Shown piece by piece: positions 37,345 through 39,388 of a DNA stretch of 64,000 nt. The stretch spans positions 3,172,001 through 3,236,000 of the forward strand of contig NZ_WBOF01000001.1 of the NCBI RefSeq assembly GCF_009569385.1, read 5' to 3'. The notes below the pieces were generated by a model, which saw only the letters and a list, made by a program, of their open reading frames with translations, was not told the DNA's origin and ran no database searches. Origin of the DNA: Streptomyces kaniharaensis (GTDB taxonomy: Bacteria > Actinomycetota > Actinomycetes > Streptomycetales > Streptomycetaceae). The first letter of the stretch is position 1. Each line of letters starts with the position of its first letter. The position numbers were made by a program, and so were the translations under genes.

Positions 37345-38247
37345 GTGACCGACACCATCGACTCCCCCGGCCTCGCCGAGTTCGAGCAGCACCGGCGCAT
37401 GATCTTCGGCATCGCCTACCGCATGCTCGGCAGCGTCGCCGACGCCGAGGACCTGGTCCAGGACACCTGGCTGCGCTGGAGCCGGGTCACCGGCCCGGTC
37501 GCCCACCCGGGCGCCTACCTGGCCCGGACGGTCACCAACCTCGCCCTCAACCGGCTCGACTCGGCCGCCGTCCGTCGCGAGTCCTACGTCGGCCCGTGGC
37601 TGCCCGAGCCGCTGGTCACCGAGCCGGACGCGACCGAGGACGTCGAGCGCGCCGAGACCGTCTCGCTCGCCGTGATGGTGCTGCTGGAGAGCCTCTCCCC
37701 GCTGGAGCGGGCGGTCTTCGTCCTCAAGGAGGCCTTCGGCTTCTCCTACAAGGAGATCGCCGAGGCCCTGGACCGCACCGAGGCCGCGTGCCGCCAGGTC
37801 GGCAGCCGGGCCAAGGCGCACGTCCAGGCCGGCCGGCCGCGCTACGACGCCCCGCCGGAGCTGCGCCGCCGGGCCACCGACGAGTTCCTCGCGGCCTGCG
37901 CCGGCGGCGACCTCAACCGGATGCTGGAACTGCTCGCCCCCGATGTCACCTCGTGGACCGACGGCGGCGGCGTGGTCCGCGCCGCGCTGCGCCCGATCAC
38001 CGGCGCCGACAAGGTGGCCCGCTTCATCCTCGGCGTGCTCAGCCAGCTCGGCGAGGGCGCCGACGCCCGACCCGCCCTGGTCAACGGCCAGCCCGGCCTG
38101 CTCGTCACCGTGGACGGCGCGGTCGACTCCGTGATGGCGTTCGATTTTGTCGAGGGCTCCGACGGCGGGCCCCGGATCGCCGCGATGCGCTCCATCCGCA
38201 ACCCGCACAAGCTCAGCCACGTCGCCGCCGGCACGAAGGGGGCTTGA
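37345..38247 (+). CDS. ECF41-type RNA polymerase sigma factor with SnoaL-like C-terminal domain
   Basis: The 300-residue protein has sigma region 2 (EFEQHRRMIFGIAYRMLGSVADAEDLVQDTWLRW), region 4 (LSPLERAVFVLKEAFGFSYKEIAEAL) and a C-terminal SnoaL/NTF2-like domain of about 110 residues that serves as a built-in regulator in ECF41 factors. The family motifs are visible: WLPEPL (85-90), DGGG (about 210) and NPHKL (about 288). TAGCGT lies seven bases before the GTG, indicating a leaderless start. The carboxymuconolactone decarboxylase/oxidoreductase/epimerase partner gene usual for ECF41 is absent next to it. Confidence 0.9.
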   Translation: MTDTIDSPGLAEFEQHRRMIFGIAYRMLGSVADAEDLVQDTWLRWSRVTGPVAHPGAYLARTVTNLALNRLDSAAVRRESYVGPWLPEPLVTEPDATEDVERAETVSLAVMVLLESLSPLERAVFVLKEAFGFSYKEIAEALDRTEAACRQVGSRAKAHVQAGRPRYDAPPELRRRATDEFLAACAGGDLNRMLELLAPDVTSWTDGGGVVRAALRPITGADKVARFILGVLSQLGEGADARPALVNGQPGLLVTVDGAVDSVMAFDFVEGSDGGPRIAAMRSIRNPHKLSHVAAGTKGA

Positions 38248-38281
38248 CCCTCGACCTGGTCGAGCCACCACAGTCACCGGC

Positions 38282-39388
38282 ATGGAGAGCGACCTGCACA
38301 GCATCGGCGAACTGGCTCGCGCGAGCGGCCTCGGCATCGGCACCCTGCGCTACTACGACGGCGCCGACGTGCTCACCCCCGCCCGGGTCGACCCGCAGTC
38401 CGGCTACCGCTGGTACGGGCCCCGGCAGGTAGCCGACGCCCGGCTGCTCGCCCGGCTGCGCCGGGTCGGCCTCCCGCTGGCCGGCATCCGCGCCGTCCTC
38501 GGCGCGGCCCCCGGCTCCGGCGAGGCCCACCGGGTGGTCGACGCGCACCTGCGCCGGCTGGAGGACGGCCTCGCCGACGCCCGCCGCGAGCTCTCCCTGA
38601 TCCGCACGCTGATCGACCAGAGGGAGAACCCGATGACCACCGCCCCCGCCGAACTCCGGCTCACCGTCCCGGCCCACGAACTGGCCGCCGCCCTCGACGC
38701 GGTCCGCTTCGCGGTCGGCGCCGACCCCGAACTCCCGGTCCTCGCCGGGGTGCTGTTCGACCTGGACGGCACGGTGCTGCGCCTGGTCGCCACCGACCGG
38801 TACCGGATGGCGCTCGCCGAGGTGGCCCTCCCGGCGGCCCCCGAGACTGCGCCGCCCACCGGCACGATCGTCCCCACCGCCCTGGTGGACGCCCTGCGCG
38901 CACTGCTCGGCGCGGGCGCCGCCGAGGCCGAACTGACCCTCGGCGGCGGCCTGGTCCGCGCCGAGACCGGCGGCCACCGGATCGAGGGCGCCACCGTCGA
39001 CCTCGACTACCCCGACTACCGCGCGCTCACCCGGCTCGACCCGCAGCACCGGATCGGCCTGCCCGCCGCAGACCTGCGCGGCGCCGTCGAGTCCGGCGCC
39101 ACCCGCACCCTGCCGTCCGGCCCGCACGGCGAGGACTGCACGGTCACCGTCCTCGCCCTCACCCCGGACGGCCGCCTCGCGGTCGCCCCGGCCGACGCCG
39201 ACCCCGCGCCGGGCGAGCTGCGGGTGGCCGTCAACCGGGACTTCCTGCTGGACGCCCTGCGGGTCGGCCGTCCCGAGCAGCTGGTCCTCGAACTCGGCGG
39301 CCCGATCGCCCCCCTGGCGATCCGCACGCCCGGCCGGGACGGCACCTTCTCCATCCTGATGCCGGTCCGGGTGCCCGAACTCGGGTGA
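38282..39388 (+). CDS. MerR-type regulator fused to a DNA polymerase III beta-clamp-like domain
   Basis: The 368-residue protein starts with a MerR HTH (HSIGELARASGLGIGTLRYYDGADVLTPARV, about residues 6-75) and a helical linker (85-115), then about 245 residues resembling the second and third domains of the sliding clamp DnaN: PVLAGVLFDLDGTVLRLVATDRYRMALAE (152-180), VDLDYPDYRAL, VNRDFLLDALRVG and a C-terminal ILMPVR. In normal MerR proteins the C-terminal part binds a ligand. Here a clamp-like fold may mediate dimerisation, DNA encircling or replisome contact. A CACAGT box seven bases before the ATG may serve as -10; the ECF41 gene ends 34 bases upstream. It is intact and without frameshift. 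Confidence 0.85.
   Translation: MESDLHSIGELARASGLGIGTLRYYDGADVLTPARVDPQSGYRWYGPRQVADARLLARLRRVGLPLAGIRAVLGAAPGSGEAHRVVDAHLRRLEDGLADARRELSLIRTLIDQRENPMTTAPAELRLTVPAHELAAALDAVRFAVGADPELPVLAGVLFDLDGTVLRLVATDRYRMALAEVALPAAPETAPPTGTIVPTALVDALRALLGAGAAEAELTLGGGLVRAETGGHRIEGATVDLDYPDYRALTRLDPQHRIGLPAADLRGAVESGATRTLPSGPHGEDCTVTVLALTPDGRLAVAPADADPAPGELRVAVNRDFLLDALRVGRPEQLVLELGGPIAPLAIRTPGRDGTFSILMPVRVPELG

Follow-up and report, generated by a model that had tools for sequence, protein, structure and literature searches.

What might a bacterium do with a transcription regulator joined to a piece of a sliding clamp? The question is raised by one gene in the window, the 64,000-nucleotide stretch of Streptomyces kaniharaensis DNA analysed here. 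The gene (38282..39388, on the forward strand, as are all features described below) is an intact open reading frame of 368 codons followed by TGA, and its long form of 368 aa was delineated by ORF, Pfam and phmmer analysis together with AlphaFold2 superposition. A MerR_1 winged helix-turn-helix occupies residues 7-73 (38300..38500; Pfam 46.4 bits, cut-off 21.6). It is followed by a long helix at residues 81-115 (38522..38626), which links both parts in the secondary structure of the model and through which MerR dimerisation would be expected to take place. The rest of the protein comprises DnaN domain II (DNA_pol3_beta_2, residues 129-245, 38666..39016; 58.6 bits, cut-off 27) and a domain III-like portion (residues 246-364, 39017..39373), assigned by structure alignment, with a C-terminal LMPVR at the peptide pocket. 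The Pfam model of domain III, DNA_pol3_beta_3, matched residues 305-363 with 19.1 bits, under its cut-off of 27. When compared to PDB sequences with phmmer, residues ~123-363 matched DnaN chains (best E 7.6e-20), while residues 2-72 best matched chains named 'Multidrug-efflux transporter 1 regulator', which we take to be BmrR. An AlphaFold2 model, built from 38 aligned sequences with a mean pLDDT of 87.4, showed that residues 121-364 superpose on domains II-III of DnaN, with 224-231 residues aligned, Z of 23.5-26.9 and rmsd of 1.9-2.8 Å across the 50 matches listed. A single superposition accommodates both domains, so that the groove separating them is expected to have the layout of a real clamp. 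Only clamps occur among the structure matches listed because the clamp domain fills the list, and the assignment of the MerR part rests on sequence. The fusion is therefore composed of a MerR DNA-binding domain and clamp domains II-III of DnaN, as the original prediction had proposed from the letters alone, and both the profile searches and the structure prediction that it called for agree with it. With 75.4 bits against a cut-off of 137.65, the protein falls below the threshold of the DnaN equivalog model TIGR00663 of NCBIfam; two of the three clamp domains, II and III, are present, and a working ring clamp was rejected, domain I being missing.

The MerR-half-clamp fusion is a conserved family. 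For its study a sample of 84 distinct members, the window's included (set A), was assembled, with identical proteins and one interrupted protein of 206 aa (L055) left out, along with 23 remote members forming subfamily B, two of which (L131 and L147) come from genes with uncertain starts. MerR_1 and DNA_pol3_beta_2 were matched in all 84 proteins of set A, the other 83 being 44-92% identical to the window's, and in 19/19 subfamily B members scanned. A sequencing error joining two separate genes, raised earlier as an alternative, is ruled out by the presence of both parts in every one of the 84 distinct members. Alignment of the two profiles, set A and subfamily B, extends over their full length (hhalign probability 100, 28% identity), with 19 of the 23 remote members in the subfamily B alignment, and a model of subfamily B contains the same clamp half (Z 24.4-28.5 across the 50 matches listed). 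In a tree of the clamp half, which took in 32 of 84 set A, 14 of 23 subfamily B and 18 of 27 DnaN sequences, each of the three forms one group (support 100/99, 100/98 and 100/99, respectively). Close matches were detected in all of the 37 genomes searched from the window's genus, its own included, two of them having the match in pieces, and the named relatives with the fusion are Kitasatospora, Streptomyces, Micromonospora, Plantactinospora, Blastococcus, Pseudonocardia and a record labelled Saccharothrix. Counting both subfamilies, matches at E <= 1e-30 occur in 159 of the 297 genomes from the bacterial family. Among 396 genomes of the phylum, at least 11 matches (L058-L068) reach into both halves, and the other matches among those listed cover the clamp or the MerR part alone. 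A phage origin was rejected, the one phage record found matching the MerR part only and none carrying the fusion. A plasmid origin was also rejected, with five plasmid records 47.6-48.4% identical, three of which annotate the gene merely as 'MerR family transcriptional regulator'. No publication on a MerR-clamp fusion was found by title or abstract start in the open-access literature searched.

The peptide pocket and the ring interface have fared differently in these proteins. Pocket residues and the interface positions 272/273 were taken from the part of PMC11139829 used here. Among positions at least 80% conserved in 27 same-class DnaNs (27 of 30 loci being extractable), set A retains 13 of the 16 located in the pocket and 28 of the 94 lying outside it in domains II-III, a difference with a Fisher p of 1.4e-4, to be read with the alignment columns not being independent. 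The three changed pocket positions mostly show substitutions of L to M, Y to F and L to I/V, and Thr171, Arg175, Met360 and Pro361 are invariant in 84/84; positions 198 and 298-304, which shift between alignments, were excluded as evidence. The clamp pocket between domains II and III thus appears from these alignments to be kept in the fusion. In subfamily B, subsite I is kept and subsite II is changed. Griselimycins and mycoplanecins bind this very pocket, and the fold matches listed include clamps whose structures were determined together with griselimycin or mycoplanecin. The domain-III dimer interface of DnaN, on the other hand, has not been retained in set A: position 272 (E. coli) is Leu in 27/27 DnaN sequences versus Val in 44 and Thr in 27 of the 84 fusions, and position 273 is Val in 27/27 versus Arg in 67/84, with Val in just 2/84. 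When compared to DnaN, the fusion hence has in common the fold of domains II-III and most of the peptide pocket, and differs in being without domain I, in the attached MerR part and in the change at interface position 273.

Directly upstream of the start codon, 82 of the 84 set A genes have a promoter with a putative operator. In the window this consists of a -35 element TTGACC (38244..38249), an inverted repeat CTCGACC-T-GGTCGAG (38250..38264) lying between -35 and -10, which is the commonest form in set A and is predicted to be a MerR-type operator from its conservation upstream, and a -10-like hexamer CACAGT (38269..38274), assigned by consensus, 7 nt before the start codon. The two exceptions are a gene at a contig end and one reading TTGACT. 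At the 19-bp spacing, which was taken from the alignment, the hexamer reads CAGAGT in 37 genes, and its second base A and sixth base T occur in 82/82. Long promoter spacers of this kind are a hallmark of MerR-activated promoters. The features of the MerR family are accordingly found together here, namely the winged helix-turn-helix, the long helix after it (in the model) and a promoter operator with a 19-20 bp spacer. In 80 of the 82 genes the start codon lies 37-39 nt past the first base of the -35 element, which suggests that the long-form mRNA is probably leaderless, and a Shine-Dalgarno (SD)-like motif at the first codon was detected in only 11/80. In many set A members codon 5 is a further start codon, and 50 of 52 of those are preceded by an SD-like motif, so that it is uncertain where exactly the long form begins; codon 5 of the window gene (within 38282-38296) is CTG. 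In subfamily B a related upstream site, TTGACCTT..., was found in 22/23 genes. The arrangement is that of a gene predicted, at the level of sequence, to regulate itself through its own operator.

A second conserved signal lies within the linker. An internal SD, AGGGAG (38621..38626), formed by the rare Arg codon AGG (residue 114) and the GAG that follows, was recognised by an SD scan, codon statistics and anti-SD energy, and it precedes an ATG (Met118) from which a predicted short form of 251 aa, the clamp domains II-III alone, could be produced (38633..39388). Codon 118 is ATG in 75 and GTG in 3 set A genes (78/84), all 78 with an SD-like motif, while the next best column for start plus SD anywhere in the gene reaches 50/83 (residue 5). 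Within the SD, Arg is encoded by AGG in 61/67, versus 32/2347 at other columns with at least 50 Arg, a comparison in which shared descent and codon usage are accounted for; in members with Lys, Gln or Glu in place of Arg, the SD persists at the nucleotide level as AAGGAG, CAGGAG or GAGGAG. A strong SD occurs in 72 of the 78, compared to a mean of 11.2 and a maximum of 19 in 2000 synonymous resamplings. The anti-SD energy averages -8.66 kcal/mol at the internal site versus -3.68 kcal/mol at other in-frame ATG/GTG codons, 4.4% of which reach the median of the internal site. Six of the 84 members do not have the internal start: five Micromonosporaceae have lost start and SD alike (-2.1 to -2.2 kcal/mol), and one Streptomyces-side gene has lost the start codon alone. 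No internal start site was found in subfamily B, where the best column reaches 9/23. As a control, the same scan was applied to MerR-TipAS genes (22 of 30 loci, L214 being short and L224-L230 left out), and SD plus ATG/GTG/TTG was found in the linker of 22/22. An effector-only isoform is thus predicted for 78 of the 84 fusions.

The operator was also sought elsewhere. In the window's own genome there is one exact site, that of the fusion itself, the next best having two mismatches. Across 61 genomes of the genus, 55 exact sites were found, 54 of them, by coordinates, directly before a full fusion. The remaining one, in genome G203, stands before a clamp-only gene of 252 residues, and a second full DnaN begins 875 nt past the operator, immediately behind that gene. 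The clamp-only gene keeps the AGAGGGA and ATG of the linker and has TAG in frame just upstream, leaving only the internal-type start usable. Fourteen sites with one mismatch were recorded: five precede the fusion, one lies 104 nt upstream of a second DnaN (genome G010) and eight occur elsewhere, none standing before a clamp gene among the five of these eight looked at. Genomes G203 and G010, whose fusions are outside set A, each also carry a full fusion with its own operator, and their spare DnaNs, which share 79% identity, have retained Leu272/Val273 at the ring interface. Pocket drift is seen in these two strains, with Ala365 in both fusions, Ser172 in that of G203, and Ser172, Gly174, Thr364 and Leu365 in the clamp-only gene of G203. 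In 70 Kitasatospora genomes, second full DnaN matches were found at 13 places, one with an internal stop, and the operator is absent within 900 nt of 11 of these 13 (at least 7 mismatches), as well as at three Streptomyces-side relatives of those second DnaNs. A search of 20 further genomes placed 20 of 21 exact sites before the fusion. This distribution indicates that the fusion gene is its own main target and that a spare clamp would be part of the response in two strains or more. Other second full DnaNs occur in the class, for example in G709, G726 and G741; second DnaN copies are possibly resistance or plasmid copies.

Among known systems, the closest in plan is TipA, in which a MerR domain is likewise joined to an effector. 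According to the part of PMC7762955 consulted, TipAL and TipAS arise from two alternative start codons, with TipAS predominant and sequestering, and the system is autoregulated. TipA genes also have a promoter of their own with TTGACC and an inverted repeat, complete in 5/22 of the 60-nt stretches, and share with the fusion the SD and start in the linker. The effectors differ, being TipAS in one and DnaN domains II-III in the other, and TipAL is said to activate several genes, unlike the fusion. A Pfam scan of the 84 members gave 7 families at E<=0.001, TipAS (PF07739) not being one of them, hence the fusion is not a TipA member. BmrR also combines a MerR winged helix-turn-helix with a ligand-binding C-terminal domain, and differs in its effector fold, described as a GyrI-like domain in PMC7762955. 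Judged by its domains, the fusion is a MerR regulator on TipA's plan, and is neither a TipA member nor a sliding clamp. A further likeness concerns GriR and MypR, the second DnaNs of the griselimycin and mycoplanecin clusters, which are thought to give self-resistance, griselimycins and mycoplanecins being compounds that bind DnaN (PMC10817943, for the portion drawn on here). Two second DnaNs stand behind the fusion's operator in the present genomes; the fusion systems differ in adding a half-clamp and a MerR switch, and in that an antibiotic cluster was not identified here.

Taken together, these data suggest, with a probability of roughly two in three, that the gene encodes a TipA-like, self-activating sensor of ligands of the clamp pocket, with a half-clamp decoy as its output and sometimes a spare clamp. 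The long form would dimerise via the MerR helix and sit on the promoter with the 19-bp spacer. A molecule directed at the clamp pocket would occupy the half-clamp, whereupon the MerR dimer would open the promoter, and the new mRNA would yield long and short forms. The clamp-only short form would mop up the ligand and so protect the real clamp, while in some strains the same operator would also drive a spare full clamp. The likeliest ligands would be natural products of the griselimycin/mycoplanecin type, or other clamp-binding peptides or proteins; clamp-binding natural products head the list since these compounds bind DnaN and their clusters contain a second DnaN. Phage proteins or host clamp partners may also be ligands of the pocket. 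Of the two ideas put forward in the original prediction, the use of the clamp fold as a ligand module is the better one, while the proposed tie to replication holds as far as the operator before a second full DnaN in two relatives and is not supported as regards action as a clamp. The operator, the internal start and the pocket had gone unnoticed in that prediction. Several observations count against the sensor reading: the internal start is lost in 6/84 and was not found in subfamily B, the operator stands at only 2 of the 13 second DnaNs and at none of their three Streptomyces-side relatives, the pocket has drifted in G203 and G010 and, at subsite II, in subfamily B, eight one-mismatch sites lie elsewhere, and no antibiotic gene cluster was identified beside the fusions, whose neighbours are partly annotated. 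A more specific version, which we place just short of an even chance, is that of a target mimic acting as sensor and sponge, in which the drug-binding half of the clamp is combined with a MerR switch and a decoy, such that a clamp attacker induces its own trap and, in some strains, a replacement clamp.

It is also conceivable, albeit unlikely, that the half-clamp competes with the clamp for host proteins carrying clamp-binding motifs, with the MerR part thereby sensing replication stress or a shortage of clamp and raising clamp production. Since its pocket is like the one in actinobacterial DnaN, motifs of host proteins would be expected to bind there, the structure matches listed include clamps bearing DnaE1 and ImuB peptides, and the operator before a second DnaN in two genomes would be explained as well. 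Such a monitor of replication is difficult to reconcile with the sole exact operator in the window's own genome being that of the fusion, and not of repair genes or the main dnaN. Its decoy isoform would also titrate replication proteins away, and 138 of the 297 family genomes have no match at E <= 1e-30, which is odd for a core function.

Improbable in our view is the re-use of the clamp fold for an unrelated small molecule, or merely as a rigid dimer or steric module. MerR proteins do carry varied effector domains, and 66 of the 94 conserved positions outside the pocket have drifted in set A. Against a re-purposed fold, the drift mostly spares the pocket, apart from the three positions changed, and the operator also stands before a clamp-only gene and spare DnaNs. 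A similarly low standing is given to a phage alarm, whereby the half-clamp would bind phage inhibitors or hijackers of the clamp and the decoy and spare clamp would rescue the host. Phage proteins that bind the clamp exist, as illustrated by 7evp (Gp168-clamp) among the structure matches listed, and the 41 Streptomyces-side set A loci have no neighbour cluster common to 5 or more, which fits this idea; none of 15 neighbour genes scanned with Pfam has a family name suggesting phage defence, and the lack of a phage record with the fusion also speaks against it. It is very improbable that the internal SD and ATG survive from an earlier gene junction and that the long form alone is made. Such a site might be left behind when two genes fuse, and its start codon is lost in some members, but the AGG codon is held, the SD bases persist under Lys, Gln and Glu, TipA-type genes bear the same signature and a natural clamp-only gene keeps the site.

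Should the sensor reading be correct, the essential target of a drug, stripped of its function, would serve as both receptor and sponge, and we know of no described case of a drug target re-used in this manner. Clamp-targeting molecules still unseen would be predicted to exist in soil communities, and the system would amount to a tolerance mechanism complete in itself, of relevance for griselimycin-type leads. Genes labelled only as MerR family transcriptional regulators would gain a testable function. The promoter would lend itself directly to reporting new antibiotics that target the clamp, in the way that the tipA promoter has been used as a screen for thiopeptides (PMC3917276, in the part consulted).

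Additional aspects of the locus concern its neighbours, among which no operon partners conserved across genera were found. The gene upstream of the fusion (37345-38247) is recognised by models for sigma factors of the ECF41 type (TIGR02957, 347.7 bits), and its stop codon (38245-38247) falls within the -35 sequence of the fusion promoter (38244-38249). The sigma factor noted earlier is thus present in the window, but a general link to it was rejected, as a match occurs in just 5/34 loci, some of them cut short, and one of the five is a 42-residue remnant. Kitasatospora loci share neighbours among themselves, as do Micromonospora loci, in which a saccharopine-dehydrogenase-like gene lies upstream and a seryl-tRNA synthetase gene downstream (Pfam, one locus scanned). 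A gene for a 232-aa protein without Pfam match adjoins 9/19 subfamily B fusions (L129:4559-5257 and eight other loci) and is possibly a partner of this subfamily. The window's own genome also encodes a 335-aa protein (L003:1489-2493; C7, ~45.4-46.4 kb) in which a degenerate DnaN domain II (26.7 bits, cut-off 27) is the sole Pfam match at E<=0.01, the gene for which sits on an 84.7-kb contig.
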